Shown piece after piece: positions 1-34,546 of a stretch of DNA of 52,765 nt (within the stretch, counting starts at the first letter, position 1; the number at the start of each line of letters is the position of its first letter). The position numbers and the translations under genes were made by a program. The notes beneath the pieces are model-generated. The model was not told the DNA's origin, made no database searches, and saw nothing but the letters and a program-made list of their open reading frames with translations. Origin of the DNA: Candidatus Kapaibacterium sp. (GTDB lineage: Bacteria; Bacteroidota; Ignavibacteria; Kapaibacteriales; UBA2268). Location: NCBI GenBank assembly GCA_026390695.1, contig JAPLFL010000042.1, positions 1-52,765 of the forward strand, given 5' to 3'.

Positions 1-334
1 AAGATTGGCTTAAAAAGATCAGTTGAGAAGCTAAAAAAATGGAGCTTTTAAAAATTCCGAACCCTGAATTTTTAAAAGCTAAAAAAAAACTGTCTCAGGT
101 GAAAAAAAGCTTGGAATTCAACATAAAAGACAGCCTCAAACTCATTCGCGGAAATGACAATTTCTTGAAAATTTTGAAACAACATCAATCTTCGAATTTA
201 TTTTTCTGTGTGGAAGTGTTTATAAATAATACTTAATAACAAAATACCTTTGCCAGATAATTTTTTTTTACAGGAAGTTAAAATACATTTTTTATTGGTT
301 CGTTTATATGTTTGTGAATATTTTTTTTGGGGAA
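1..334. other. AT-rich stretch with no recognised gene
   Basis: No gene can be supported here. A 65-codon open frame (39-236, + strand) begins with an ATG that lacks a ribosome binding site, is rich in Lys and Leu, and resembles no family I know. The sequence just before 335 is poly-T rich and probably holds the promoter of the following gene, but I could not place a promoter with confidence. Confidence 0.4.
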
Positions 335-958
335 ATGATTAGCAAACTCAGACATATTACAACTATTTTACTTCTGGTGGTTTTTCCGCTGGCTTCTCTT
401 AATTTGCAGTTCTCTGTTCGCAAGTGTAACCGCAGAGGATTATTGCAGTTAAGAATATTTAATTCTGAGATTAATTTAAACCTGTTATCATTTAATCCAC
501 TTGCATGTTGCGAGATTAATCCCAAAAATAATTCAGGTAAACAAGAAAAAAATAGAGATTGCTGCAAGCCGAACGGCGCAGCTAATGCTGGTAGCGAAGA
601 TGATGGTTGTGAGTTTTGCAAAAAATCTGATAAAAGTTCAACCAATGAAAATTCAGATTCTGATGATAATATTTTAGAATATAAAACCATCAAAACTGGC
701 TGCTGCTCAAATTCTATTGTTAGTAATACCCTTCAGGGATCGTTTGTTAATTCCGATATTCAAATATCTGCTAAAATTTTTAACTCCGCTACTATTGCTG
801 ATATTCAAAGAAAATATATCCCTATTTCTTATCAAGGCGATGAAGGTTTTAAAGATATATTCTATCCGCTTAAAGAACCGATAAGCCAGATAATCTCCTT
901 TATACATTTCACTTCCAATGCCGAAGACTGCTCAGACGCAACAGATGCTATTTGTTGA
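335..958 (+). CDS. Cysteine-rich exported protein of unknown function
   Basis: I do not recognise the family. The start at 335 is preferred over the in-frame ATG at 308 because a GGGGA ribosome binding site sits just before it and the protein then begins directly with a signal-like segment (MISKLRH followed by a Leu/Val stretch). The mature part is rich in cysteine, often paired: CC in 'ACCEIN' and 'DCCKPN', C-x2-C in 'CEFCKK', CC in 'TGCCSN', and a C-terminal Cys ('DAIC'). It also has a Ser/Asp/Asn-rich linker. Paired cysteines in an exported protein suggest metal binding or disulfides. It lies just upstream of the cytochrome/cupredoxin genes on the same strand, but a hairpin (961-1009) separates it, so it may be its own unit. 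A role in metal sensing or binding is inference only. Confidence 0.6.
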   Translation: MISKLRHITTILLLVVFPLASLNLQFSVRKCNRRGLLQLRIFNSEINLNLLSFNPLACCEINPKNNSGKQEKNRDCCKPNGAANAGSEDDGCEFCKKSDKSSTNENSDSDDNILEYKTIKTGCCSNSIVSNTLQGSFVNSDIQISAKIFNSATIADIQRKYIPISYQGDEGFKDIFYPLKEPISQIISFIHFTSNAEDCSDATDAIC

Positions 959-1099: not shown

Positions 1100-2383
1100 A
1101 TGAAGAAATCAATCATCTATTTAGCATTCGTAGCAATAATAGTAATGCTCAATATCCAAAATGCAAGTGCTATACCGGCTTTTGCGCGTAAATATCAAAC
1201 TTCTTGCGTTACCTGCCATACAATTTTTCCACAATTAAACGCATTCGGAGAGGCTTTCCGAATAAATGGCTATCAATTTCCTGTTGATGACGAGGAACAA
1301 GTTAAAGAAAAGCAAGTAGCACTCGGCGCAGAGGCAAACAAAAAAGTATTTCCCGATGCAGTCTGGCCAAATTCCATACCTTCGTCGATGCCGGTCTCCT
1401 TCCGCGGTGAAACTGCTTATCAGGTATCAACCGATATGGCAGGCACGACAAGTTCTCAATTTATGATCCCCGCCCTCCAGATTATTGGTGCAGGCACATT
1501 TGGACAGGATATAAGTATCTGGGCAGGTGCAACCCTATTTAACGACGGAAAAGTTGGGAATCTTGACAACTTTTTTATTAAGTTCGATAATCTTTTTACA
1601 AGTCTCCTACCAGAAAAGGCTCTTTATTTTAGATTAGGGCAGTTCATTCCGGAGATTGTACCATTTGCTTCACATCACCGCGGATTAACAATTGCTCCTT
1701 ATGCAATGAATACTTACAATCCCGACGATCCAATGATGCGTAAAATGTTTATGGCTGGTCATTCTCATGGAGGAGCAACAGCATTTGGTATTGAAGGTTT
1801 CCAAATCGGTGCAGAAGCAAGCGGAGTTATGGCAAGTCGTATCCGTTGGGTTGCCGGAGTGCTCAATGGTGGCGGAACCGAAGACGATGTTAATTCCAGC
1901 CGAGATTTTTATGGACGTTTAGCATATAAAATCGGTGGATTAGCTTATGACGGCACCAGCAAAGACAGCATATATAATAACGAAGAAACTTCCTTTGCTC
2001 TTGGAGTTTTCGGATATACCGGAACCGGAACAGGCGCTGATACATTGGATTATAGTTTCTACAGAGCAGGTTCGGATTTCAATTTAACTTATAAAAGGCT
2101 CAGTATAATCGGAGGAATAATTACCGGAAAAGATAATACTGGTGATAAAGAATTTTACACCCTCTTATTTGGAGAAGCCGATTATTTGTTCTATCCTTGG
2201 CTGATGGGAATTTTGCGCTATGAACAGGTAAATGTTAGGGGTTTAACTCAGCCACTCCGCCAAATTGTTGTTCATGGCAGTGCTTTGGCAGTTGCAAATA
2301 TCAAGTTCAAACTCGAAACACGCCTAAATCCTGACGATATGAAAGCATATAATATGTATGTGGGAGTGGATTTTGGATTTTAA
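1100..2383 (+). CDS. Cyc2-like fused monoheme cytochrome c-outer membrane porin
   Basis: A 427-residue exported protein. It has a signal peptide (1-24, ending NASA) and a single heme c site C36-V-T-C39-H40. The heme site sits inside a block that matches my memory of the Cyc2 signature: P-x-FAR (26-30) before it, and P44-x-L46-x-x-FG (49-50), F53 and GY (57-58) after it. The remaining ~360 residues alternate polar and hydrophobic/aromatic residues and end in '...GVDFGF', a C-terminal Phe typical of outer-membrane beta-barrels. Cyc2 proteins carry electrons across the outer membrane from Fe(II), but related cytochrome-porins occur in non-iron-oxidisers, so the substrate is not proven. AAAGGA precedes the ATG. 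It heads the row of copper and heme proteins that follows, which supports an electron-transfer role. Alternative: a porin with a heme of unrelated function. Confidence 0.72.
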   Translation: MKKSIIYLAFVAIIVMLNIQNASAIPAFARKYQTSCVTCHTIFPQLNAFGEAFRINGYQFPVDDEEQVKEKQVALGAEANKKVFPDAVWPNSIPSSMPVSFRGETAYQVSTDMAGTTSSQFMIPALQIIGAGTFGQDISIWAGATLFNDGKVGNLDNFFIKFDNLFTSLLPEKALYFRLGQFIPEIVPFASHHRGLTIAPYAMNTYNPDDPMMRKMFMAGHSHGGATAFGIEGFQIGAEASGVMASRIRWVAGVLNGGGTEDDVNSSRDFYGRLAYKIGGLAYDGTSKDSIYNNEETSFALGVFGYTGTGTGADTLDYSFYRAGSDFNLTYKRLSIIGGIITGKDNTGDKEFYTLLFGEADYLFYPWLMGILRYEQVNVRGLTQPLRQIVVHGSALAVANIKFKLETRLNPDDMKAYNMYVGVDFGF

Positions 2384-2571
2384 TATCTAATTGCTATTTA
2401 ATTATGAGAGTGAAACACTTTTTTATAAACACAGCCCCTTACCGCCTCTTTTCAGTGGTGGGATTGACTGGAGGATCGCTTCCATTCTTATTAATCAAGT
2501 CAGATTTATATGAATCGACTTCTTTGAAAAAAAACAAATAATTTAATCATTTAATATAAAAGGACCAAATC

Positions 2572-2967
2572 ATGAAAAAATCAATTATAATATTGCTAAA
2601 CTGCCTTGCAGTTATTTTTACCACTTTATTAATTTCATCCTGCGATAAGACAAACACCGTAGATCCGATGAATCAAGCAAGTGTCGCTTTTACATACTCT
2701 CCAAATCCAATTGTGAAAAATATTCCAACAACTTTTACTTTCACCGTTAGCGATGGAATGAGTATGATGACCGATGTAACTAATTATACTTGTTCTTACA
2801 AGCCAATGATGGCTTTGTCATCTACAAATTTAACTCTTGCTCGTACTGCAACCGGAACATATTCTGGAACTTGTACTTTTAAGGACGCAGATTCCGTTAT
2901 GTTCACATTTAACTGTATGTATTCGATGTCGAACTTGACAAAGAATTTCAATTGTGTTGTCAAATGA
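2572..2967 (+). CDS. Small lipoprotein, single beta-sandwich-like domain
   Basis: A 131-residue predicted lipoprotein: signal peptide with lipobox L-I-S-S-C24, so anchored in a membrane after processing. The mature part reads like one immunoglobulin-like or YtkA-like beta-sandwich ('FTYSPNPIVKNIPTTFTFTV', then a 'TGTYSGTC' turn). It has several Met residues (MSMM, KPMM, MYSM) and four Cys (in NYTC, SGTC, FNC, FNC), which could bind copper or form disulfides. An AAAAGGA ribosome binding site precedes the ATG. Its place between the cytochrome-porin and the cupredoxin suggests an accessory role in the same system. Function is unknown. Confidence 0.65.
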   Translation: MKKSIIILLNCLAVIFTTLLISSCDKTNTVDPMNQASVAFTYSPNPIVKNIPTTFTFTVSDGMSMMTDVTNYTCSYKPMMALSSTNLTLARTATGTYSGTCTFKDADSVMFTFNCMYSMSNLTKNFNCVVK

Positions 2968-3084
2968 GTTTGTAAAGAAGAATAAATAATTAAAAAAATA
3001 GAATTAAAATCCCTCTGGGGTGAAATAATATTTCTTTTGTTATACTCAAAAAAATTTATCTATTTATAATTTAAAAGGAATCAA

Positions 3085-3684
3085 ATGAATAAAAATCAAA
3101 TAATAAGCGCGATAATTCTATTTGCAGTAATCTGCTTGAATCTCTCAATTGCAGCGGATATTAAAGGTCATGTCGATACTGATGCAAATAAAATAAAATA
3201 TAAAGCAAATACCGTGGTTTACATTGACAAAGCAGAAGGTAATTTTAAAGTTCCGATGAAAAATCCTGAAATGAATCAAACAAAATTAACTTTTGTTCCT
3301 CATGTTCTTCCGGTGTTAGTTGGAACAACAGTCAATTTCCTCAATAATGACGATGTGCTTCATAATGTCTTTACTCCTGATGCCTGTGCAGGGAAATTTA
3401 ATCTCGGTTCATGGAAAAAGGGTGAGATTAGGTCGCATAAGTATGATAAAGCTGGATGTAATTCTGTACTTTTATGCAACGTACATCCTGAAATGGAAGG
3501 CTATGTCGTTGTTTTGCAGAATCCATATTTTGCATTAACTGATAAAGACGGAAATTTTGTTATTAAAAATGTTCCGGCAGGGAAATATACAATTAAAGTA
3601 TGGAATGAGAAATTAAAAGCAGCCGATCAACAAATTACTGTCGGGACTGGAAAGAATGAAGTAGTATTTAAGATTGCAAAGTAA
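3085..3684 (+). CDS. Periplasmic type-1 copper (cupredoxin) protein with carboxypeptidase-regulatory-like tail
   Basis: A 199-residue exported protein (signal peptide 1-23). The core is a plastocyanin/azurin-like cupredoxin. Ligands are visible as H93 in 'DDVLHNVF' and C131-x2-H134-x2-M137 in 'LLCNVHPEMEGY', the classic blue-copper set. Residues ~148-199 ('ALTDKDGNFVIKNVPAGKYT') form a carboxypeptidase-regulatory/SpaA-type beta-sandwich. Proteins of this build are often annotated 'methylamine utilization protein' or plastocyanin-like. It is expected to shuttle single electrons in the periplasm. Placed after a Cyc2-like cytochrome-porin and before heme and CuA proteins, it occupies the position rusticyanin has functionally in iron oxidation; that comparison is inference. 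AAAAGGA precedes the ATG. Confidence 0.85.
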   Translation: MNKNQIISAIILFAVICLNLSIAADIKGHVDTDANKIKYKANTVVYIDKAEGNFKVPMKNPEMNQTKLTFVPHVLPVLVGTTVNFLNNDDVLHNVFTPDACAGKFNLGSWKKGEIRSHKYDKAGCNSVLLCNVHPEMEGYVVVLQNPYFALTDKDGNFVIKNVPAGKYTIKVWNEKLKAADQQITVGTGKNEVVFKIAK

Positions 3685-3696
3685 ATGAAAACCAAG

Positions 3697-3776
3697 AAAT
3701 CCCCCTAATCCCCTTTTTCAAGGGGAAACTGGAATCAGATTCTTAACACTCCTTTGAAAAAGGGGGCAGGGGGTTT
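3697..3776. repeat. Imperfect palindromic repeat, G5-run family, copy 1
   Basis: Two arms, AAATCCCCCTAATCCCC followed by TTTTCAAGG, and CCTTTGAAAAAGGGGG followed by CAGGGGGTTT, form a long imperfect hairpin about 80 bp across. A single-arm relative lies at 10445-10476, so this is a dispersed element. It sits between the cupredoxin and cytochrome genes and may also terminate or attenuate the transcript. Confidence 0.75.
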
Positions 3777-3832
3777 CTCTTATCATGTACATTGTTAAAT
3801 TTTGAGCTTAAAAAGTTATTAAGGATACAAAA

Positions 3833-4216
3833 ATGGAAAAGATTAGTATTAAAAACAGAGTTACGCAATTTATTGGAATAATTATTCTGTTAATTTCCTT
3901 TGAATTTGCTTTGAATTCATGCGAAAGAGATTTAGTAATCGCTCCCGCTCCTTTAAAAATTGATAATAGCTGTGATACGGTTAATGTCTCATTTTCTAAA
4001 ACTGTATATCCGGCAATAAGTAAATGTATATTATGCCATAATAATTCCAACTCAACACGTGATGTGAACCTTGAAGGCTATGAAAATGTCCGCGATCTTG
4101 CTATTAAGGGAGAACTTTTCGGATCAATCTTAAGCAATATGGGGATGTACATTGAAAGCGAATGTGACAAAGGAAAAATTCAGGCATGGGTTAAACAGGG
4201 TGCTAAAAATAATTAA
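3833..4216 (+). CDS. Monoheme c-type cytochrome lipoprotein
   Basis: A 127-residue predicted lipoprotein with lipobox L-N-S-C30. It has one heme c motif, C65-I-L-C68-H69, preceded by 'VSFSKTVYPAISK', as in small cytochromes where the domain opens with 'V.P.I...C..CH'. Met residues in 'SNMGMY' could supply the axial ligand. Probably a periplasm-facing, membrane-tethered electron carrier. Its stop codon overlaps the start of the next gene by one base (TAATG), so the two are probably co-translated. The ATG at 3833 follows an AAGGA ribosome binding site. Confidence 0.8.
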   Translation: MEKISIKNRVTQFIGIIILLISFEFALNSCERDLVIAPAPLKIDNSCDTVNVSFSKTVYPAISKCILCHNNSNSTRDVNLEGYENVRDLAIKGELFGSILSNMGMYIESECDKGKIQAWVKQGAKNN

Positions 4217-4740
4217 TGAAAAATATGAACATAAAAAAAGTCGTAATAATAATTACAATAACTTTGACAGGCGCTTTAGCAGGAATCCTCTACTTCAATT
4301 CCTCAGCAAAACCGATCAGAAGGGATATTGTAATCAAAGCTCGTCAATATTCTTATGAACCAAATAGAATGGAAGTCAACGTCGGAGATACATTGTACAT
4401 AAAACTGCTTGCATTGGACGTTATGCACGGCTTTTATCTTGAAGGTTATGATATCGATGCAGAAATTCCGGCAAATCTTAGTAATTTCAAGGTTAGAAAA
4501 CCATCCGATGGTTTTAATTGGAAAGATACTAATGAAATTGTCATTATTGTTACAAGAGGTGGAAAATTCCGTTATCGCTGCTCACACACTTGCGGAACCA
4601 TGCACCCATTCATGCAGGGTGAAATGATAGTACATCCGAATCATTTGTTTAATGGAGGAGTCGGAGCTGTTATTGGATTTGTATTTGGTCTGTTATGGCT
4701 TATTTACAAAAAAAATAAGAAAGGGCACGATAATGAATAA
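4216..4740 (+). CDS. Membrane-anchored CuA-type cupredoxin (cytochrome oxidase subunit II-like)
   Basis: A 174-residue protein with an N-terminal membrane segment (~8-27), a cupredoxin domain and a C-terminal membrane segment (~145-163). The CuA site is complete: H71 in 'DVMHGFYLEGYD', then C122-x3-C126-x3-H130-x2-M133 in 'CSHTCGTMHPFM'. The residue equal to the COX2 Glu (a backbone ligand) is His124 here. CuA centres are found in heme-copper oxidases, some NO reductases and NosZ, where they take electrons from cytochrome c or cupredoxins. No subunit I lies nearby. The reading frame starts inside the stop of the preceding cytochrome gene and ends inside the next gene (8-base overlap), so these three form a tight translational unit. 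Confidence 0.82.
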   Translation: MKNMNIKKVVIIITITLTGALAGILYFNSSAKPIRRDIVIKARQYSYEPNRMEVNVGDTLYIKLLALDVMHGFYLEGYDIDAEIPANLSNFKVRKPSDGFNWKDTNEIVIIVTRGGKFRYRCSHTCGTMHPFMQGEMIVHPNHLFNGGVGAVIGFVFGLLWLIYKKNKKGHDNE

Positions 4741-6181
4741 AATGGAAAAAGAATCAGGAATCAAAATTCCAATGGATGTTAAAAATGGTAAAAATACGGA
4801 TTTATTGACAAAATTTCCTTTATTAAAACGGATACTGAAAGCACGTTCCTTTCAATTTATAATAATTCTACCAAATTTATTCGTGTTTTATGTAATAATA
4901 TTGGCTGGTATAATCGGCTCGCCTGTAGGAAATCGGAATATAGCAATAGTTTTTATCTGGATTTTATGGTGGTTTCTATTAATTGCAATTATGGTTCCTT
5001 TTGCGTCAAGGGTATGGTGTACTATGTGTCCACTGCCATTTTTCGGAGATTTGTTTCAACGAATGGCATTTATTAAAGTCAGATTAGGCAAAACAGCTTA
5101 TCTTAGAAATAAAATGTTCGGACTAAATAAAAAATGGCCTAAATATTTAACCAATATCTGGATTCAAAATATCGGATTTCTCACATTATGTACATTTAGT
5201 GCTGTTCTTGTTACCCGGCCTTTTGTAACCTCGATAGTTTTAGGTCTGATGTTGCTATTAGGGACAGTCATGTCAATGATATGGAAGCTACGTTCATTTT
5301 GTAGCTATATTTGTCCGGTGAGTGGATTTTTAAGTTTGTATTCTTCGGCTGCTACCATGGAATTGAGACGGATTGATAATGATGTTTGCTTGAAATGTAA
5401 GGACAAGGGCTGTTATAAGGGCAACGAAAAAGGATATGGCTGCCCTTGGTCGGAATACATGGGAACTATGGAACGGAACAACTATTGTGGATTATGCACC
5501 GAATGCTTAAAAACCTGTCCTAATGATAATATTGGATTAAATACTCGCTCCTTTGCAAGTGAAACGATTATAAAAGGTTATGATGAATCCTGGAAGGGAT
5601 TTATTATGTTAGCACTTGCCATGGCATATTCTGTAATTTTATTAGGAACAAACGGAACGATAAAAAATTGGGCTAATGCACCAGAAACCGGCAATTGGGG
5701 TGGATTTTTTATTTATGCGGCAATACTCTGGTCCTCTGCTCTTGTGGTTGTACCTGCCGTATTTTATTTCTTTGCATATTTATCAAAATTAATAACCAAG
5801 TCCACTCAGAGCGTTAAGGAAATATTCAAGACATTTTCATATATATTAGTTCCATTGGGGCTTCTGGCATGGATAGCCTTTAGTTTTCCTCTTATTTTCG
5901 TAAATGGTTCATATATTATTTCAGTAATTTCTGATCCACTCGGTTGGGGATGGAATCTATTCGGAACAGCAGGTTTTAAATGGCAACCTCTTGTGCCTGA
6001 TTATTTAGGTTATGTCCAATTAATTTTACTATTAACCGGATTAGGTTTTGCAATTAGTCGAGGTTATAGAGTCAGTTTAAATATTTTCAAGGACGAACAT
6101 ACTGCATTAATGGGATTATTGCCTATGGCGGGTTTTGCACTATTAGTGACTTTGGCATTTTTAACATTTTTTATAGGATAG
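4733..6181 (+). CDS. NosR/NapH-like membrane polyferredoxin
   Basis: A 482-residue integral membrane iron-sulfur protein. The start at 4733 is chosen (a longer open frame begins at 4652 inside the previous gene) because AGAAAGGG lies about 7 bases before it; ATG 4742 is also possible. Membrane segments are visible near 43-62, 70-90, 146-160, 165-185, 290-305, 325-350, 370-392, 428-440 and 460-481. Cys motifs are C96-x2-CP, C190-x3-CP, C219-x2-C...C227...C237P and C252-x2-C-x2-C-x3-CP262; the last two groups resemble a 2[4Fe-4S] ferredoxin. This is the plan of the NosR/NapH/CcoG group, which moves electrons between quinone or flavin and periplasmic carriers. No N-terminal FMN domain is present. 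Flanked on both sides by CuA proteins. Confidence 0.83.
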   Translation: MNKMEKESGIKIPMDVKNGKNTDLLTKFPLLKRILKARSFQFIIILPNLFVFYVIILAGIIGSPVGNRNIAIVFIWILWWFLLIAIMVPFASRVWCTMCPLPFFGDLFQRMAFIKVRLGKTAYLRNKMFGLNKKWPKYLTNIWIQNIGFLTLCTFSAVLVTRPFVTSIVLGLMLLLGTVMSMIWKLRSFCSYICPVSGFLSLYSSAATMELRRIDNDVCLKCKDKGCYKGNEKGYGCPWSEYMGTMERNNYCGLCTECLKTCPNDNIGLNTRSFASETIIKGYDESWKGFIMLALAMAYSVILLGTNGTIKNWANAPETGNWGGFFIYAAILWSSALVVVPAVFYFFAYLSKLITKSTQSVKEIFKTFSYILVPLGLLAWIAFSFPLIFVNGSYIISVISDPLGWGWNLFGTAGFKWQPLVPDYLGYVQLILLLTGLGFAISRGYRVSLNIFKDEHTALMGLLPMAGFALLVTLAFLTFFIG

Positions 6182-6189
6182 GTGGAAAA

Positions 6190-7161
6190 ATGAAGAAAAA
6201 TATTAAAGAAATTATCGCATGGGCACTTGTTCTTGTAATTCTTGTCGGAACTCCGATAATAATAATGTATTATTCTCATACGAATAACCATACTCAAAAA
6301 AGAATGATTCATCTGACAGGTGTAGCTTCGCAAGGTGTTTGGACTGAGGATGAAGTCGAAGCGGCGGATTTAACTTTTAAAACTTTTAAAAGAGCAAACA
6401 TTGTTCTGACTCAAGGTGAAGAAGTAATTTTCAGATTCACAAGTGCTGATGTTACACACACGTTTTATGCTCCTGAAATAGGCTTGGGACCTATTGTTGT
6501 TGAAGCAGGTCATTATTACGATATTCCTTTCACCCCGAAGCTAACAGGAAAATTTACTTATTATTGCACTGTTTTCTGCGGCCATTGTCATAATTTTATG
6601 CGGGGTAATATCGTTGTTCTGACTTCGGAACAAGCAGCTAATCGTTCTTTAGCGGCATCAATTACGATGGATACGATACGTCCAACTTGTTGTGCACCTT
6701 ATAGGGAATTGACTGATGGTACAAATCTACCGTTTCTAAAGCGCGGGAAACTTCTATTTCTTGACAATGGATGCTATACCTGCCATGGAGATTCAGGCAA
6801 AGGTGGGGTCTATAATCCTAATTATGTGAACAGAACAATCCCTGACCTGATTACTCTTGCAAAGAAACTGAAAATCGGAGATAAACAAGAAGCCGATAGT
6901 TTGATTAAAATACTTGAGACTGGCACTGAACTTGACAAACTTAATGACAATCCCCCATTTGCCAGCTATTGCCGGTTTTATGCTCAGTATAATTCGATTT
7001 CAACAAAGATAAAGGACGGAGCTCCGATTGTATTAAAGGCAGACTCTTTATCCTTTAATCCGCCACTTACAATGCCATCATGGAGTGCTAATCTATCGAA
7101 AAGGGATATTAATTCTATTATTGCTTATTTTATTAGTATCTATAATTGGGATAATGATTGA
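6190..7161 (+). CDS. CuA domain-cytochrome c fusion protein (COX2-like)
   Basis: A 323-residue protein: one N-terminal membrane anchor (~9-28), a cupredoxin domain (~60-150) and a C-terminal cytochrome c domain (~183-318). CuA ligands are H90 in 'DVTHTFYAP' and C126-x3-C130-x3-H134-x2-M137 in 'CTVFCGHCHNFM'. The heme site is C195-Y-T-C198-H199, and M295 in 'TMPSW' is the likely axial Met. This is the caa3-type subunit II plan, but without subunits I or III. Oddly, C130-G-H-C133-H134 is also a perfect CxxCH inside the CuA loop. An extra CC pair (167-168) lies in the linker. The gene begins 8 bases after the polyferredoxin with a GGTGG-type ribosome binding site, so the two are likely co-transcribed. 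Confidence 0.85.
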   Translation: MKKNIKEIIAWALVLVILVGTPIIIMYYSHTNNHTQKRMIHLTGVASQGVWTEDEVEAADLTFKTFKRANIVLTQGEEVIFRFTSADVTHTFYAPEIGLGPIVVEAGHYYDIPFTPKLTGKFTYYCTVFCGHCHNFMRGNIVVLTSEQAANRSLAASITMDTIRPTCCAPYRELTDGTNLPFLKRGKLLFLDNGCYTCHGDSGKGGVYNPNYVNRTIPDLITLAKKLKIGDKQEADSLIKILETGTELDKLNDNPPFASYCRFYAQYNSISTKIKDGAPIVLKADSLSFNPPLTMPSWSANLSKRDINSIIAYFISIYNWDND

Positions 7162-7293: not shown

Positions 7294-7425
7294 GGATTAA
7301 TATATTAGGCATAACTAAATATATTATTAGACTACATTTGGATTTGTATTATTAGTTTATTATTTTTGTATTGGGGTAGTTTCACTAATTTAGATTTTTT
7401 TATTATTTATTATATAAGGTGTACC

Positions 7426-8163
7426 ATGAACAACTCTACTAATCCACGCTCCAGCTCACGCTTAACAGCACTTGTAGCTATCGCAGCATTTATCGCTCTC
7501 AATTTGGTTATTTCTTCCGAATTGTTCTCACAAACGGTGACTCAGCCTGTAGCCGGTGTCACAGCAAATTTCAAGAAATATATTTACACCGAAATTCTCT
7601 CAAAATCTACAAAGAGAGACATTGAATATGTTTGTATTTTATCTTCAAAGGGCGAGGTAAAAACTTGTTTAAATGCCTGCGATGTTTGTTACGGTGCTCA
7701 TAAGGGCTATTCAAAATCCGGTACTACACTTGTGTGCAATAATTGTGGCAATAAATTTGCTATTGATGGTTTAGGGACACAAGGCACAGGTGGCTGCAAT
7801 CCCGGTTATTTGCCGCATACAATTGTTGGCGACAGTGTTGTTTTTCAGATTGCAGATTTTCTACCTAAAGGAGAACTTTATTTTTTAATAACTCCTTATT
7901 CAAGTGCTGTTGAAGATAAATCAATAGCCTCTGCATCAAATTTTAATTTATTAATTCAAAATGATAATTTAAAAATTAGCTTTGAGGACATTAATGTTCA
8001 TAACTGTTCAATTTTTAATATCAACGGTGAAATTTGCAAGACATTTTCTGAAAATTCTTCGGAATTAAATGCAGATATTTGCGATTTGAGCGCAGGCTCT
8101 TATTTAATAAAAGTGGAAGAAAATGGGAAATATGTATCCAAAGTTTTTTCGATAAGTAGATAA
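7426..8163 (+). CDS. Secreted DUF2318-like cysteine protein with T9SS sorting tail
   Basis: A 245-residue protein starting at ATG 7426 (AAGG ribosome binding site); the longer open frame from 7366 is not used because the signal peptide starts here (membrane-like 14-30, cleavage near FSQ). The middle matches the DUF2318 cysteine pattern: C85-x2-C88 ('NACDVCYGAHKGY'), C104-x2-C107 ('VCNNCGN') and GGC124NP. DUF2318 proteins are linked in other bacteria to FTR1-type iron uptake and are thought to bind a metal or Fe-S centre. The C-terminal ~70 residues ('IFNINGEICKTF...AGSYLIKVEENGKYVSKVFSI') form a type A sorting domain, so the protein is probably exported to the cell surface. This fusion to a T9SS tail is unusual. 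Role in the adjacent redox cluster is inferred from position. Confidence 0.75.
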   Translation: MNNSTNPRSSSRLTALVAIAAFIALNLVISSELFSQTVTQPVAGVTANFKKYIYTEILSKSTKRDIEYVCILSSKGEVKTCLNACDVCYGAHKGYSKSGTTLVCNNCGNKFAIDGLGTQGTGGCNPGYLPHTIVGDSVVFQIADFLPKGELYFLITPYSSAVEDKSIASASNFNLLIQNDNLKISFEDINVHNCSIFNINGEICKTFSENSSELNADICDLSAGSYLIKVEENGKYVSKVFSISR

Positions 8164-8444: not shown

Positions 8445-9077
8445 ATGAAAAAGATATTTTATTCTATAATCGCTATGATAGCGATTATTACAGGATGTTC
8501 TTCAGACCCTGCCGGTAATAATTCCGGCGGATCAATGACTAAACCATTAATCGTTAGTCTGACTGCTAAAAAGACTCAGATTCTTTATGGCGGTCAAGAC
8601 CCGGCTATTATCACCTGCGTCGCAACCGGTGGGAATCTGAAATACAAATGGCAGGTCGATTTGGGAGATATTATACCTCTTAATGCTGATAATTCCAAGA
8701 TCAGTTTCAACGGAGCCGCTTGTTGTGTTGGCGTTAAAGTCATCAATTGTACTGTTTCAAATGATTCCGGGAGCGTTACAAAAAGTATTGAGATTGAAAT
8801 ACTTGAAGTTATTAAGGAACCTGAAATCATCAGCATTCAATCTGATAATACCGATATTATCGTCGGTCAAACTACGGATATTGTTTGCAATGCTCTTGGC
8901 GGCCACTTGAATTATTTATGGGAAGCTGATTGCGGTGATATCGTTTTAAATCTTAAAGATAGTACTAAAATATCTTATACCGGTTCTGCGGCGTGTAAAG
9001 GGAATAGAACTATTAAATGCACTGTATCAAATGAAAAAGGTACAATAAAAGATAGCATAAATATTAACGTTAAATAA
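8445..9077 (+). CDS. Lipoprotein with two tandem Ig-like domains
   Basis: A 210-residue lipoprotein, lipobox I-T-G-C18. The mature part is an internal duplication of about 85 residues (~33-120 and ~124-210). Each copy runs 'P.I.S...K...I..G', '.C.A.GG.L.Y.W..D.GDI', 'DS.KISY.G.A.C.G', 'I.CTVSN..G...DSI.I', the look of an Ig-like (PKD-type) fold with conserved cysteines, including a CC pair in the first copy. The function is unknown; such domains usually mediate protein contacts. It is 11 bases upstream of the HMA-barrel gene, so the two are likely co-transcribed. Confidence 0.7.
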   Translation: MKKIFYSIIAMIAIITGCSSDPAGNNSGGSMTKPLIVSLTAKKTQILYGGQDPAIITCVATGGNLKYKWQVDLGDIIPLNADNSKISFNGAACCVGVKVINCTVSNDSGSVTKSIEIEILEVIKEPEIISIQSDNTDIIVGQTTDIVCNALGGHLNYLWEADCGDIVLNLKDSTKISYTGSAACKGNRTIKCTVSNEKGTIKDSININVK

Positions 9078-9088
9078 AAGATTGAATT

Positions 9089-10387
9089 ATGAAAAGCTTT
9101 TTTGCAAATTCATTGAGAATTTACTTGATTCTCATTATCATCATTTTCGCTTATAATAATGCAAAGTCTCAATGTTGCGCAGCAGGTAATCCTGTTAATT
9201 CCAATTGTTCACCTACGACCGGATTTAATCGTATCTTTGATATTTCATGGAATCAAGCTTATTCTCTCTCGAACACATATTTCGATGGAACCCGCAAATT
9301 AGATAAACAATATGCAGATATTAATTTTAATTTTTCTTCCCTTGCTTTATCTTATGGAATATCGGAGAAATTGAAATTAACTTTCGATATTGGTTTTTTT
9401 ATAAACAAATCCCAGCATTTTAAACAAAATATCATTAGCGGTGATACTATCCCCGATTTTACAAAAAAAGCTCAAGGTATTGCCGATGGAAGTATTGGTT
9501 TGGTCTTTCAGACTTATCGTAGTGAAGATAAATTATTTAATTTTATGCAATCTTTACGCATTACATTACCCTTGGGAGCTTTCAATCAGGAAGATGCTAA
9601 CGGTAATGTTTTGCCGATTGACCTGCAACCATCATCGGGAAACTATAAAGTGAATCTCGGATTTATATTTTCTAAGAAATTCGAGAATAGTGACTTTTCA
9701 ATAATGTCTGCAAATAATATTGAATTTTCTCAAATGATCGAAACTCAAAATTCTTATCAAAAATACGGCAATTTATATAATTTATCTTTAGCCGGCGTGT
9801 ATCAGATAAATCCTAATGTGCTCTCTATACTTCAAGTAAGATGTGAAATACGTGATAAAGCTTTAAACGGAGCAAAATCTCAAGGCAATTCATATTCTTT
9901 TTTAAACTCTTCCGGTGGTCAGATATACTTTGTTTCACCTCAGGTTTCTTATAGACTTGCTGATTCATGGATGCTATCATGTCAATTCAACCAGCCTATA
10001 ATCAAACATGTTTACGGAGAACAACTTACTAATAAATATTCCGTCCTTGCAACTATCTCCAAGAGTTTTGACTTCTCCGTAAAAGATGATGTAAAAATAT
10101 CCGAATCCCATGATTCCACAGAAAAATTCCTTATGATTTCAGTAAAAGGGAATTGCGATATGTGCAAAGCCCGTATTGAATATGTAGCAAATGATTCTAA
10201 ATTTGTAGAGTCTTCGGAGTGGAATTCCGAATCTAAAGCTCTTAAAGTATATTATAAGAATGGTTTACCCGATGTTGATGCAATTAAAAAATCAATTGCA
10301 GCTGCCGGACACGATACTGAACTCTATAAAGCACCTGATGATGTTTACGAAAAACTACCTAAATGCTGCCATTACCGAGAGAAATAA
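9089..10387 (+). CDS. Outer-membrane beta-barrel protein fused to a C-terminal heavy-metal-associated (HMA) domain
   Basis: A 432-residue protein with signal peptide (1-28, ending AKSQ), then CC (29-30) and C40 near the mature N-terminus. Residues ~45-330 have the alternating aromatic pattern of a barrel ('LALSYGISEKLKLTFDIGFF'), like transporter-type outer-membrane proteins. After a Ser/Asp linker, residues ~346-430 form an HMA domain: 'MISVKGNCDMCKARIE' with C356-x2-C359, 'WN.ESKALKVYY', 'IKKSIAAAGHDTE' and a closing 'LPKCCHYR', the usual end of HMA proteins in Bacteroidota. HMA domains bind Cu(I) or similar metals. A barrel with a periplasmic metal chaperone tail suggests outer-membrane metal transport or sensing. 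It fits the copper-rich proteins upstream. Confidence 0.78.
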   Translation: MKSFFANSLRIYLILIIIIFAYNNAKSQCCAAGNPVNSNCSPTTGFNRIFDISWNQAYSLSNTYFDGTRKLDKQYADINFNFSSLALSYGISEKLKLTFDIGFFINKSQHFKQNIISGDTIPDFTKKAQGIADGSIGLVFQTYRSEDKLFNFMQSLRITLPLGAFNQEDANGNVLPIDLQPSSGNYKVNLGFIFSKKFENSDFSIMSANNIEFSQMIETQNSYQKYGNLYNLSLAGVYQINPNVLSILQVRCEIRDKALNGAKSQGNSYSFLNSSGGQIYFVSPQVSYRLADSWMLSCQFNQPIIKHVYGEQLTNKYSVLATISKSFDFSVKDDVKISESHDSTEKFLMISVKGNCDMCKARIEYVANDSKFVESSEWNSESKALKVYYKNGLPDVDAIKKSIAAAGHDTELYKAPDDVYEKLPKCCHYREK

Positions 10388-31205: not shown

Positions 31206-31727
31206 TTATGCTGCTCTTTTAGCAACTTCTTCGATAACTGATGCGAGATCACGAATGACCGCATTGATTGACCCGACTATTCCGGAGACCGGAGCATCTA
31301 AGCTCGACAGTATTCCGGATATCAAATCCTCGCGTGTTGGCAAGGTTGATATTAGAGCCAGTTGAGAGCCGTCATAGACCTGGCCTTCGATTATTGCAAC
31401 TTTTAAAGTTGGGAACTCGCGTTTTTCGGTAAACTGTTTAAATATTTTTGCTGGTGCAATCGGATCGCTTGATCCGAGAGCAAGTCCGGTTGGAAGCTCA
31501 AAATATTTATCCGGTACGTTAAAACCGCCGATTTCCTCCATAGCGCGGCGTATCAAAGTATTTTTTGCTACTCTGTAAGTCACACCTTTTTCTTTAAATT
31601 GCCGACGCATGTTGATTGTATCGGCTACCTTCATTCTTGCAAAATCGATAAAATAAACACCAGATGCGTTTTTGAGCAATTCAACTAACTCTGCGTATTT
31701 TTTTACTTTTTGTTCTTTAGATACCAT
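31206..31727 (-). CDS. rplJ: 50S ribosomal protein L10
   Basis: A 173-residue L10, normal length. It has the L10 opening ('EQKVKKYAELVELLKNASGVYFIDFARMKV'), the rRNA-binding core with 'YRVAKNTLIRRAMEE', and a C-terminal helix ('IRDLASVIEEVAKRAA') that holds L7/L12 dimers. L10 with L12 is expected to repress its own mRNA through the leader just upstream (31765-31806). Confidence 0.97.
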   Translation of the reverse strand: MVSKEQKVKKYAELVELLKNASGVYFIDFARMKVADTINMRRQFKEKGVTYRVAKNTLIRRAMEEIGGFNVPDKYFELPTGLALGSSDPIAPAKIFKQFTEKREFPTLKVAIIEGQVYDGSQLALISTLPTREDLISGILSSLDAPVSGIVGSINAVIRDLASVIEEVAKRAA

Positions 31728-31764
31728 CGTTTTGCTTGTAATTTATTTAACTTCAGCGTTAAAT

Positions 31765-31806
31765 GTTAGCAGCCACCGGTTTGAACCGAAGGAGAAGCCT
31801 GCTGAC
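31765..31806 (-). promoter_or_regulatory. L10 leader-like RNA structure upstream of rplJ
   Basis: In the 143-base gap between rplA and rplJ, the - strand folds as GTCAGCAG...CTGCTAAC (one mismatch) enclosing CGGT-TCAA-ACCG, with asymmetric internal bases between the stems. A bent stem of this kind before rplJ fits an autoregulatory L10(L12)4 binding site. The assignment rests on position and fold only. Confidence 0.5.
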
Positions 31807-31870
31807 TTTGCGCTTTCAGTGCGTAATAGACAATTTTTACTTATTAGTTTGAACTTAATAATCAAACTAT

Positions 31871-32575
31871 TTAACTTATAACTTTTTCAAAGGACAATTC
31901 GTTGATTTTAACTCCACCACCCATTGTTGATGAAAACGCAACGTTTTTAATATATTTTCCTTTAGCCGTTGTTGGTTTTGCTTTTAATACGCTTTGATAA
32001 AATGTATTGATATTCTCTTGCAATTTTATTGCATCGAATGAGCATTTGCCAACTGCAGCATGGACATTTCCGGTTTTATCAACACGGAATTCAATTTTAC
32101 CGGCTTTGACCTCGGTTACCGCTTTTGCCACATCAAATGTAACTGTTCCGCTTTTAGGGTTTGGCATCAAGCCACGTGGGCCAAGGATTCTACCAAGCTT
32201 ACCAACTTCGCCCATTACATCGGGAGTAGCAACTATTACATCGATATCAGCCCAGCCACCCTTAATTTTTTCTACATATTCTTCCATACCGGCATAATCA
32301 GCACCTGCATCAAGTGCTTCTTTATCTTTTGGTGATTTGCAGATAACAAGAACTCTTACTTTTTTACCAATACCATGAGGCAATGATACCGTACCACGAA
32401 CCATCTGGTCTGCTTTACGTGGATCAACACCAAGTCGGATAGCTACCTCAAATGATTCGTCGAATTTTGCAGTTGCATTTTTCTTCACCAAGTCAACAGC
32501 TTCCTGAAATGTATAAGCTTGCTTTACATCGAAGCTTTTTACAATTTTTTTAAATCTTTTACTAAACTTTTTCAT
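31871..32575 (-). CDS. rplA: 50S ribosomal protein L1
   Basis: A 234-residue L1, full length, with '[32 protein letters not shown]', '[18 protein letters not shown]' and '[19 protein letters not shown]'. It forms the L1 stalk on 23S rRNA and commonly represses the rplK-rplA mRNA. It is 33 bases after rplK, in the same operon. Confidence 0.98.
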
Positions 32576-32608
32576 GATTTAAACTTTAAATAATTCAAAA
32601 ACGCTTTA

Positions 32609-33034
32609 TTAGCCTTCAACCAAAATACCCATACTACGTGCAGTTCCTTTTATCATACTTACGGCACTGTCCATAGTATCACAGTTCAGATCAGGCATTT
32701 TAATTTTGGCTATATCAACGCACTGAGCATGGGTTACTGTGGCAACTTTTTTCTTATTTGGCTCTGGAGAGCCTCCTTTGATACCTGCGGATTTAATTAA
32801 TAAAACCGGCGCCGGTGGCGACTTTATAATAAAAACAAAGGATTTATCGGTGTAGTAGGTAACCTGAACAGGTAGAATCATACCGATTTGCTTTGATGTT
32901 TTGGCGTTAAATTGTTTAACAAACTCCATACCGTTCAGACCACGTTGACCGAAAGCTGGACCAACAGGAGGCGCCATTGTGGCTTCGCCTGCTTTTAACT
33001 GAAGTTTGAACACACCTGCTAATTTTTTTGCCAT
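32609..33034 (-). CDS. rplK: 50S ribosomal protein L11
   Basis: A 141-residue L11, normal length: '[25 protein letters not shown]' (N-terminal domain) and the RNA-binding '[29 protein letters not shown]' C-terminal domain. It binds the GTPase-associated centre of 23S rRNA, next to the L10/L12 stalk. It follows nusG by 53 bases. Confidence 0.98.
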
Positions 33035-33087
33035 TTCTTACTCTTGTATTTTATATTAAAATAACTGTCTAAATTTTTTATATCAGA

Positions 33088-33660
33088 TTAATGATTTTCC
33101 ATCTCTACTTGACTAAAATCGAGCTCTACAGGCGTTTTGCGTCCTAATATCCCGATTTCAACTTTTAATTTTTGTTTTTCGTTGTTTACTTCCTTAACAG
33201 TTCCGTTAAAGTTTGTAAAAGGTCCTTCGATAACCTTGATTGGATCGCCAATCTGGAAGGTTGTCTCTATAGTTGTAATGTTTTTGCGTTCCTCAACGCG
33301 TCCGATGATTCTCTCTACTTCGTGCATCTGTAGTGGCTGTGGTTCAAGCTTTCTACCAACAAAGCTAACTACCGATGATAAAGTTGAAATAACCTCATGT
33401 ATTTTCTTATCCATAATCATATAGACAATCACATAACCCGGAAGGAAATTTTTGATTCTTGTTCTGCGTTTTCCGCTACGAACCTCAAAAACAGTTTCCT
33501 GTGGAATGATTATCTGGCGAATTTTTTCTTCAAGGTTCAACCTCTTGACTTCCGCTTCCAAAGCGAGTTTAACCCGCTGTTCATGTCCCGTAAAAGTACG
33601 TATAGCATACCACTTGGGTTCGATGTTTTTTGGAATATTTATTAGTGCCGGTTCACTCAT
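33088..33660 (-). CDS. nusG: Transcription termination/antitermination protein NusG
   Basis: A 190-residue NusG. The NGN domain opens with 'KWYAIRTFTGHEQRVKLALE' and the C-terminal KOW domain holds 'GDPIKVIEGPFTNFNGTVKEV'. It binds the RNA polymerase clamp and affects pausing, Rho termination and coupling to ribosomes. It follows secE by 42 bases in the usual order secE-nusG-rplK. Confidence 0.97.
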   Translation of the reverse strand: MSEPALINIPKNIEPKWYAIRTFTGHEQRVKLALEAEVKRLNLEEKIRQIIIPQETVFEVRSGKRRTRIKNFLPGYVIVYMIMDKKIHEVISTLSSVVSFVGRKLEPQPLQMHEVERIIGRVEERKNITTIETTFQIGDPIKVIEGPFTNFNGTVKEVNNEKQKLKVEIGILGRKTPVELDFSQVEMENH

Positions 33661-33702
33661 GGTCGGTATTTTTTGTGTAAAAAAGGTTGGATAAATGAAG
33701 GT

Positions 33703-33897
33703 TTAGTGAGATAACCAAACCAAACCCTTTGATACAATAGTCATAATTGTATCTATAAAAAAAGCAAATACTGTAAATATCATGGAAGTAACGATGACAA
33801 CTATAGTTGATTCACGTAACTGATCTTTAGTAGGCCAAGAAACTTTTTTCATTTCAGCCACTACTTCATTTGCAAAATCTTTTATTTTCTTAATCAT
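33703..33897 (-). CDS. secE: Preprotein translocase subunit SecE
   Basis: A 64-residue short SecE with one membrane segment ('STIVVIVTSMIFTVFAFFIDTIM', ~30-52). The amphipathic start 'FANEVVAEMKKVSWPTKDQL' contains the conserved 'KVSWPT'. It is an essential part of the SecYEG channel. It lies between tRNA-Trp and nusG; no rpmG (L33) is seen before it. Confidence 0.96.
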   Translation of the reverse strand: MIKKIKDFANEVVAEMKKVSWPTKDQLRESTIVVIVTSMIFTVFAFFIDTIMTIVSKGLVWLSH

Positions 33898-33922
33898 AAT
33901 TTAATCTTTCATTTTTCAAAAG

Positions 33923-33995
33923 CACGGGTGGTAGGACTCGAACCCACAGCCTACGGTTTTGGAGACCGTCGCTCTACCAATTGAACTACACCCGT
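33923..33995 (-). tRNA. tRNA-Trp (anticodon CCA)
   Basis: A 73-base cloverleaf: acceptor ACGGGTG/CACCCGT, discriminator G, D-arm GTTC..GAGC, anticodon loop CTCCAAA (CCA), T-loop TTCGAGT. CCA is not encoded. It is the last tRNA before secE. Confidence 0.97.
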
Positions 33996-34009
33996 AGAAC
34001 CGTTTTCAG

Positions 34010-34082
<73 letters not shown>

Positions 34083-34114
34083 AAATATCAAATAACTATT
34101 TCAAATCCACGCTG

Positions 34115-34187
34115 AGCGGGAAACGAGGCTCGAACTCGCGACCCTCAGCTTGGGAAGCTGATGCTCTACCAACTGAGCTACTCCCGC
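34115..34187 (-). tRNA. tRNA-Gly (anticodon CCC)
   Basis: A 73-base cloverleaf: acceptor GCGGGAG/TTCCCGC, anticodon stem TCAGC/GCTGA with loop TTCCCAA, T-loop TTCGAGC, discriminator T. It is nearly identical to the tRNA-Gly(TCC) 192 bases upstream, pointing to a tandem duplication followed by an anticodon change. Confidence 0.95.
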
Positions 34188-34260
34188 GTTTTAGAGAAAA
34201 AAACAATCAGGCTCATACAATTTCCTCCCGTAAAAGCCTAATTTTCCCTCTTTTCTCACT

Positions 34261-34290
34261 CTCGAAGTACATTTGAAGCACTTCTTCGAG
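34261..34290. repeat. Small inverted repeat between the two tRNA-Gly genes
   Basis: CTCGAAG at one end and CTTCGAG at the other, with a further GAAGT/ACTTC pair inside. The 192-base gap between the tRNA-Gly genes is otherwise plain AT-rich sequence. It may be an RNA processing site in the tRNA precursor. Confidence 0.35.
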
Positions 34291-34379
34291 TATTCAGATA
34301 ACCTTTTAATTTTGTTTTGTTCTAAATTTTTTATAATTTTGAATTGTCAAAATTTCGGTAAAGTTATCTTAAATTCTTG

Positions 34380-34452
34380 AGCGGGAGACGAGACTCGAAC
34401 TCGCGACCCTCAGCTTGGAAGGCTAATGCTCTACCGACTGAGCTACTCCCGC
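34380..34452 (-). tRNA. tRNA-Gly (anticodon TCC)
   Basis: A 73-base cloverleaf: acceptor GCGGGAG/CTCCCGC, anticodon loop CTTCCAA (TCC), T-loop TTCGAGT, discriminator T. The anticodon stem TTAGC/GCTGA contains a T-G pair. This is the usual glycine tRNA of the Tyr-Gly-Thr cluster. Confidence 0.96.
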
Positions 34453-34462
34453 ATCAATTTTG

Positions 34463-34546
34463 TGGGAGGGGAAGGATTCGAACCTCCGTAAGACGTTGTC
34501 TAGCAGATTTACAGTCTGCCCCGTTTAACCACTTCGGTACCCGCCC
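34463..34546 (-). tRNA. tRNA-Tyr (anticodon GTA)
   Basis: An 84-base class II tRNA: anticodon stem GCAGA/TCTGC with loop CTGTAAA (GTA), long variable arm with stem AGAC/GTCT, T-loop TTCGAAT, discriminator A. The acceptor pairs GGGCGGG with CCCTCCC, leaving a C4-U69 mismatch. First gene of the tRNA-secE-nusG-rpl-rpo series. Confidence 0.95.

Follow-up and report, generated by a model that had tools for sequence, protein, structure and literature searches.

A conserved pair of CuA proteins with a NapH-like polyferredoxin beside a Cyc2-like porin in Candidatus Kapaibacterium sp.: a putative electron conduit

A putative conduit between quinone pool and cell surface

The window analyzed here, an entire contig of 52,765 bases (G000:C5), belongs to the 4.63 Mb draft genome of a Candidatus Kapaibacterium sp. 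(host genome G000; G-numbers denote genomes and L-numbers loci included in the comparison). Between positions 1100 and 7161 it carries, all on the plus strand, genes for a Cyc2-like porin, a lipoprotein, a cupredoxin, a heme lipoprotein, a first CuA protein (CuA1), a membrane polyferredoxin and a second CuA protein (CuA2). The gene set and its cofactor-ligand motifs are conserved across phyla, and we infer from the sequences that the cluster probably forms an electron conduit between the quinone pool and the outer surface, whichever way the electrons run. An initial annotation of the window had listed these parts with the exception of the lipoprotein gene at 2572–2967, and each of those it did list is found in its place and on the plus strand.

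The genes for the heme lipoprotein, CuA1, the polyferredoxin and CuA2 look like one transcription unit, since the first two overlap by 1 nt, the CuA1 gene overlaps that of the polyferredoxin by 8 nt, and a further 8 nt separate the latter from CuA2. The porin end of the cluster is set off from this tight four-gene core by spacings of 117–188 nt, and promoter and terminator scans gave results near chance. Searches of Pfam and NCBIfam returned partial matches only (CoxB, NapH, plastocyanin and cytochrome c), several of them under the curated cut-offs.

The polyferredoxin and its CuA partners

The NapH-like membrane polyferredoxin (4733–6181) is characterized by CX2CP, CX3CP and CX2CX2CX3CP motifs and by an extra membrane part of ~200 residues. 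Ten cysteines (C97, C100, C191, C195, C220, C238, C253, C256, C259 and C263) are invariant in all 10 rows of its alignment. Measured against the pattern of two CX3CP motifs, C191-x3-C195-P fits and the first motif is C97-x2-C100-P, with C253, C256, C259 and C263 as the ferredoxin cysteines. The score against the NapH/MauN equivalog of NCBIfam is 27.7 bits (cut-off 213.05), for a match that covers residues 85–270 of 483, and a profile search of the PDB sequences gave no match to the protein. According to the accessible text of the respective papers, the membrane segments of NapH are its proposed quinol-oxidizing domain and its CX3CP motifs occur in NosR and RdhC as well (PMC5928378), and a NapH-NapG fusion has been described (PMC5449189). 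The neighbors of polyferredoxin relatives that stand without CuA were scanned in two loci, L122 and L128; NapH-like proteins are encoded beside both, and in L128 two NapG-like proteins are present as well, together with a molybdopterin enzyme of the NapA/formate dehydrogenase type that scores below the cut-offs of both families. Because of these neighbors and of the published work on NapH, the core is most simply read as a NapH-like module whose periplasmic partner is CuA. The initial annotation had proposed that the polyferredoxin replaces an oxidase, which we do not uphold, the inner-membrane half being a NapH-like module and not a former oxidase operon. Another CuA-less relative (L123, 7582–9801) has two CxxCH motifs in an N-terminal part that matches cytochrome c weakly and might be yet another type of periplasmic redox domain attached to the same membrane core.

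CuA1 (4216–4740) is predicted to be a membrane-anchored periplasmic CuA domain (CSHTCGTMHPFM) with hydrophobic helices at its N- and C-terminal ends, and CuA2 (6190–7161) combines an N-terminal helix, a CuA domain (CTVFCGHCHNFM) and a C-terminal cytochrome c (CYTCHG). The predicted metal ligands of both proteins and of the cupredoxin are not there by chance, since every aligned row has them: all 10 rows for CuA1 (H71, C122, C126, H130, M133), all 10 for CuA2 (H90, C126, C130, H134, M137) and all 13 for the cupredoxin (H93, C131, H134, M137). The motif H...C-x3-C-x3-H-x2-M is found intact in the CuA1 loop of 15 out of 16 gene-bearing loci, leaving out a cross-match in L022, with L134 as the exception. 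For CuA2, 13 of 15 loci have an intact loop (leaving out L024, which ends before the loop, and L134, which has no CuA2); the other two are L023, with an insertion, and L121, with no Met. Eleven of the 13 intact CuA2 loops contain an extra Cys (CxxxCGxCHxxM), resulting in a CxxCH that overlaps the CuA loop (6565–6600 in the window); this Cys might tune the CuA site, bind heme or take part in a disulfide. In a profile search of PDB sequences both CuA domains best match oxidase subunit II (best E 5e-20 for CuA1 and 4.2e-20 for CuA2). A single reading frame encodes both CuA1 and the polyferredoxin in L026, L121 and L134, and in L021 (636–1133) and L023 (351–842) a small gene lies between the two within the core, which is rubrerythrin-like by Pfam in L023 and similar by eye in L021.

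To our knowledge, CuA sites occur almost only inside terminal enzymes, the PmoD protein of methanotrophs being the exception. With the CuA subunits of heme-copper oxidases (caa3/ba3 CoxB) and with NosZ the window proteins share the canonical ligands H-x(n)-C-x3-C-x3-H-x2-M, and the fusion of CuA2 to cytochrome c is built as in caa3 subunit II; they differ from these by the lack of a catalytic subunit and by the extra Cys of most CuA2 loops. Like PmoD, a dimeric CuA protein, they have a membrane-anchored periplasmic CuA domain outside an oxidase. However, PmoD has no canonical motif, its site being formed by homodimer ligands between two monomers according to the accessible text of PMC6189053, whereas CuA1 and CuA2 retain the canonical loop, and membership in the PmoD family was rejected.

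The Cyc2-like porin, the cupredoxin and the lipoproteins

The Cyc2 family is defined in the available portion of Keffer et al. (PMC8406198) by AXPXFAR[Q/K][T/Y], CXXCH, PXL and a length of at least 365 residues. The putative fused cytochrome-porin of the window (1100–2383) has AIPAFARKYQTSCVTCHTIFPQLNAFGEAFRINGYQF after its signal peptide, AIPAFARKY just upstream of a single heme site, CVTCH, and PQL downstream of it (AIPAFARKYQTSCVTCHTIFPQL in the open reading frame), comprises 427 residues and ends in Phe, so that the label "Cyc2-like" given by the initial annotation agrees with the published motifs and length. Evidence for a 16-stranded barrel of the outer membrane was sought by a profile search of PDB sequences, in which no porin scored above chance (sole match E 7.7), and by a beta-moment test, which gave the same result as shuffled sequences. 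The porin resembles the Cyc2 proteins of Acidithiobacillus and Mariprofundus in these motifs, in its single polypeptide of more than 365 residues and in having a cupredoxin gene as partner, as Cyc2 does with rusticyanin; it differs in preceding a CuA/polyferredoxin module and not an oxidase of the coxBA type.

At E values up to 1e-8, porin homologs are present in 60 of 198 relatives, the host genome included, and a search of plasmids gave none. A paralog with 35% identity is encoded in the host itself on another contig (G000:C98), beside another cupredoxin; this second porin-cupredoxin pair (L007, 5664–7583) is followed by a sensor histidine kinase, and no CuA or polyferredoxin genes were noticed among the open reading frames there. 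A phylogenetic tree was obtained from 38 of the 41 sequences tried (L081, L140 and L143 failed the motif filter); its rows are homologs without tested function, and the assayed Cyc2 proteins are not among them. In this tree the porins of the window, of G014 and of two Neomarinimicrobiota loci form one clade (support 100/99) inside a less well supported group (87/95) of 19 rows, which includes cluster porins and many cupredoxin-paired porins. The cluster porins of the Myxococcota set are a separate clade (100/100) and that of L026 is a long branch, so that the cluster porins taken together are not monophyletic among the 38 rows. A broken porin gene with three in-frame stops (L071, G032:C1:1391180-1391713) lies beside homologs of the heme lipoprotein and of a Cys-rich protein encoded upstream of the window porin (see below), and probably represents the remains of the same cluster.

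The cupredoxin (3085–3684) is of type 1 (amicyanin-like), as indicated by its ligands and by PDB sequence matches to amicyanin and plastocyanin, and carries a C-terminal carboxypeptidase-regulatory-like domain. A cupredoxin of the same kind adjoins the porin within short flanks in 16 of 36 porin loci; among these pairs are all six of L072–L077, as well as L137, L138 and L151, and none was found within the short flanks of L139, L140, L141, L143 and L152. L007 has such a pair, too. In L072 a sigma-54 activator, its front cut off, is encoded beside the pair. The heme lipoprotein (3833–4216) is a monoheme c-type protein with one CxxCH, weakly LIC11213-like below the cut-off, whose homolog in G014 is located upstream of the porin. 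The lipoprotein at 2572–2967 has homologs at the same position in L018, L019 and L020; the one in G014 is weakly YtkA-like, below the Pfam cut-off.

Conservation across phyla

Among a set of 100 related genomes the polyferredoxin occurs in the host and in G014, a member of the same family, only (one of the 99 other relatives). A sample of 395 genomes of the phylum added five genomes with distant matches (24–29% identity), none with a CuA motif next to the match, and a plasmid search gave two distant matches only (23–26% identity). Scanning a contig database with two short peptide patterns, an incomplete approach, returned 10 loci whose titles read Ignavibacteria, Neomarinimicrobiota (three), Myxococcales, Chthonomonas, Deltaproteobacteria, Lindowbacteria, Desulfobacteraceae and Bacillota. 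Profile searches for the polyferredoxin around three of these loci gave matches in 3 of 199, 10 of 297 and 7 of 195 genomes, those already known being counted; of the 10 matching genomes in the set of 297, seven (L122–L129) show no CuA and G841 was not retrieved. The view of the cluster as a lineage-local curiosity was therefore rejected: the polyferredoxin is rare among relatives, but the 10 loci belong to several phyla and all three samples contain matches.

The gene order porin-cupredoxin-CuA1-polyferredoxin-CuA2 is present in eight loci (the window, L018, L019, L020, L026, L131, L132 and L133), in line with the conserved synteny that the initial annotation had asked to be checked: the cluster is kept as a unit across phyla. 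Of the 24 loci examined by six-frame scans, seven have the full order and eight (L122–L129, from seven genomes) a polyferredoxin relative that lacks CuA. The eight full loci represent about six lineages in four phylum-level groups, L019/L020 and L132/L133 being close pairs and L121–L134 being placed solely by the phylum of a titled genome. When L122–L129 are set aside and the window is counted, the core CuA1-polyferredoxin-CuA2 is found in 15 of 17 loci. The exceptions are L022, which begins inside the polyferredoxin, and L134, where the CuA1 fusion is degenerate and CuA2 is lacking; in L024 and L121 CuA2 is partial.

Pairwise identities of the five proteins over the eight full loci correlate with each other (r = 0.91–0.98), i.e., the proteins co-diverge. 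For porin and polyferredoxin in the six loci left after de-duplication r is 0.97, a value reached by 2 of 720 permutations, the identity included. Within the Myxococcota set, 195 genomes from the phylum to which G467 belongs, a porin was detected in 6 of 7 genomes with and in 34 of 188 without the polyferredoxin (Fisher p = 3.2e-4, uncorrected for kinship), and of 11 core-bearing genomes searched for the porin eight have it, with short or weak matches in G467 and G470.

These data also bear on the alternative that the cluster consists of two independent modules that happen to be neighbors, CuA1-polyferredoxin-CuA2 feeding quinol electrons to periplasmic acceptors and porin-cupredoxin doing otherwise. 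The wide spacings between the porin end and the tight core, the genomes with a core and no porin (G468, G469 and G472), the porin-cupredoxin pairs with no core genes beside them (L072–L077, as far as their short flanks reach, and L007) and the scattering of the cluster porins in the tree would all agree with such an arrangement. We nevertheless consider it improbable, given the same gene order in eight loci of four phylum-level groups, the co-divergence of all five proteins and the co-occurrence in the Myxococcota set.

Terminal oxidase and NosZ

The rus operon of Acidithiobacillus ferrooxidans encodes an outer-membrane monoheme porin, a cytochrome c, a blue copper protein, a CuA-bearing subunit II and an oxidase. 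The window cluster shares with it the porin, a cytochrome c, a blue copper protein and CuA-bearing proteins like subunit II; it differs in having no subunit I, two CuA proteins, a NapH-like polyferredoxin and the carboxypeptidase-regulatory-like domain on its cupredoxin. Neither an oxidase subunit I nor NosZ was seen among the open reading frames of the window cluster. Likewise, no COX1, i.e., no rus-type oxidase subunit I, was found in 16 related loci (5–21 kb) and in L005 and L006, and no complete NosZ in these related loci, where NosZ profiles match the CuA genes alone; the positive controls of the search, L154 and L156, were detected. The statement of the initial annotation that the cluster has no terminal oxidase is thus confirmed for the window cluster and for the 16 loci.

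Both enzymes are encoded elsewhere in the host, as the whole-genome check suggested by the initial annotation has revealed. An aa3-type oxidase operon on contig C115 includes its own CuA subunit CoxB (CSEYCGMNHSSM), cbb3-type genes are located on C108, and NosZ, on C20, has its own CuA (CTDFCSALHQEM) and apparent accessory genes (only COX1, COX2 and NosZ were assigned from matches, the other subunit types having been judged by eye). With E values up to 0.1, PF00116 matches in the host C115 and two window genes, of which CuA1 is under the cut-off. Since the aa3-type oxidase and NosZ carry their own CuA, the CuA proteins of the window are surplus to both. Of the 11 genomes that bear the cluster or the core, nine contain COX1 (all except G465 and G471) and two (G000 and G014) have NosZ above the cut-off; in the metagenome-assembled genome (MAG) of Desulfobacteraceae and in one of Neomarinimicrobiota, both incomplete, neither COX1 nor a complete NosZ was found. 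Short contigs and incomplete MAGs bound such absences of distant partners in the other genomes. Given the location of the host enzymes and their absence from the related loci, we rejected the idea that the cluster is a fragment of an oxidase or nos operon; the COX1 on the cluster contig of G470 counts against this rejection (see below).

Wiring of the conduit and direction of electron flow

In the conduit that we propose, the polyferredoxin would be the inner-membrane end, exchanging electrons with the quinone pool in the manner of NapH, NosR and RdhC, and CuA1 would act as its periplasmic partner in place of the NapG ferredoxin of NapGH or the covalent flavin mononucleotide (FMN) of NosR and RdhC. 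CuA1 would in turn exchange electrons with CuA2-cytochrome c, the heme lipoprotein or both, and these with the type-1 cupredoxin, whose own partner would be the outer-membrane heme carried by the Cyc2-like porin. NapGH, NosR and RdhC likewise combine paired CX2-3CP motifs on a membrane core with a Cys cluster of the ferredoxin type, and have a periplasmic redox partner that is encoded adjacent to this core or fused to it. The window differs in that this partner is CuA and neither the NapG Fe-S protein nor covalent FMN, in the CX2CP form of the first motif, in the extra membrane part and in the score far below the NapH cut-off. Earlier statements of the initial annotation on an entry of electrons into the ferredoxin pool and on the direction of flow are not supported by our analysis.

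Tentatively, and with a slight preference over the reverse, we favor an outward flow, in which menaquinol would supply electrons to an acceptor of high potential located at the outer membrane or further out, or else to a copper enzyme of the periplasm, for which the multicopper oxidase encoded next to the cluster in G014 would be an example. We lean this way because NapH is regarded as quinol-oxidizing, CuA sites normally accept electrons from lower-potential donors, and the Desulfobacteraceae carrier is one in which no heme-copper oxidase was found. The same conduit might also run inward, the porin oxidizing dissolved Fe(II) or another one-electron donor; electrons would then pass through the cupredoxin and CuA2-cytochrome c to terminal oxidases or NosZ, and CuA1-polyferredoxin would be an uphill arm to the quinone pool. 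Indeed, a reduction of quinone driven by Fe(II) from the potentials of CuA would be uphill, which we counted against an inward flow. We regard it as rather doubtful and yet nearly as likely as the outward one, because the Cyc2 proteins assayed so far oxidize Fe(II), their demonstrated activity according to the accessible text of PMC8406198. The pairing of porin and cupredoxin resembles that of Cyc2 and rusticyanin, the aa3-type and cbb3-type oxidases and NosZ of the host could serve as sinks, and an oxidoreductase of flavin adenine dinucleotide/iron-sulfur type, resembling the NAD(P)-binding subunit of glutamate synthase, is encoded after the cluster in L020, where Rieske and cytochrome b genes follow, and after the core in L023. 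On the other hand, no assay of a porin with this type of sequence came to light, the function of Cyc2 Cluster 3 is the most uncertain one in the available portion of Keffer et al. (PMC8406198), and the two incomplete MAGs in which neither COX1 nor a complete NosZ was found would offer no such sink.

Several observations weigh against the proposed conduit. The homologs of its two halves run in opposite directions, the inner-membrane half suggesting outward and the Cyc2 half inward flow. No His is invariant in the alignment of the polyferredoxin, and no cofactor is evident that would link a periplasmic CuA to its Cys motifs. CuA2 lacks its cytochrome part in L023, L025 and L027, and the core without porin in G468, G469 and G472 implies that the core does not always serve an outer-membrane partner. 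Among the six genomes with porin and polyferredoxin in the set of 195, G467 has a short porin match only and G1036 a porin of the other main clade together with a degenerate CuA1. In G470 (Lindowbacteria), COX1 is located on the contig of the cluster about 12 kb from CuA1, nearer than on any other cluster contig. Finally, copper-handling neighbors in several loci also fit a role in homeostasis.

Genomic neighborhood

Upstream of the porin, a Cys-rich protein of unknown function (308–958, plus strand) without Pfam or NCBIfam match has a homolog upstream of the porin in G014 and another one in G032. Three genes downstream, all on the plus strand, are of uncertain membership. The first (7423–8163) encodes an FtrD-like domain (PF10080) joined to a C-terminal sorting domain of type IX secretion, which suggests that this domain, whose name derives from an iron-transport protein, is exported to the surface here. 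It has a homolog in the metal island of G014, as has the lipoprotein encoded at 8445–9077. The third (9089–10387) encodes a barrel-like protein with a Phenol_MetA_deg match below the cut-off and, by eye, a C terminus resembling a CxxC metal-binding site.

Metal-handling neighbors of this kind are found with several clusters: a multicopper oxidase, a CusB-type adaptor, an FtrD-like gene and a resistance-nodulation-division pump (by eye) downstream in G014, a heavy-metal-binding-domain protein upstream in L131, and FtrD-like and NosL proteins downstream in L026. Together with the about five copper ions that the cluster proteins would need if every site were filled, they raise the question whether the reduction or oxidation of copper or iron by the set takes place at the envelope in the service of detoxification, uptake or the loading of cuproproteins and not of respiration. 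We hold such a role to be unlikely. The neighbors differ from genome to genome (by eye, with no dedicated scan, none were noticed among the open reading frames of L019, L020 and L132), while all eight full loci keep the same five core genes, and two electron-transfer CuA domains with a cytochrome c and a polyferredoxin suit electron transport better than chaperoning.

A sigma-54 response regulator is encoded near the cluster or core in L019, L024, L132 and L134. Near the Lindowbacteria cluster (L025, 15678–18395) we noticed by eye a large protein resembling a molybdopterin oxidoreductase of the arsenite oxidase type. Elsewhere in the window, a minus-strand stretch (31206–34546) with genes for ribosomal proteins L10 and L1 and for five tRNAs (Trp, Thr, Gly, Gly, Tyr) represents ordinary housekeeping functions.

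Implications

The gene set is not described in the accessible parts of the open-license literature that we searched, including PMC8406198, PMC5371394, PMC6189053, PMC9040806, PMC10654088, PMC5928378, PMC5449189 and PMC10367259, a search that synonyms could escape. A polyferredoxin with three hypothetical proteins is mentioned for a biocathode organism in the available text of PMC5371394.

It is a realistic possibility, if one that falls short of an even chance, that CuA represents a third kind of periplasmic partner for the quinone-reactive core of the NapH type, and that CuA1-polyferredoxin-CuA2 is a new respiratory complex acting as an oxidase-free quinone:copper oxidoreductase and distributed across phyla, in several of which it would be plugged into a Cyc2-like porin as a new route of extracellular electron transfer. 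If so, the conserved stand-alone pair of CuA proteins with its membrane polyferredoxin would mean that the NapH/NosR-type core accepts copper partners, and the set would provide a marker for a surface-to-quinone route that is not defined by searches for cyc2 or multiheme cytochromes alone. It also cautions that not every Cyc2-like porin should be taken for an iron oxidase.

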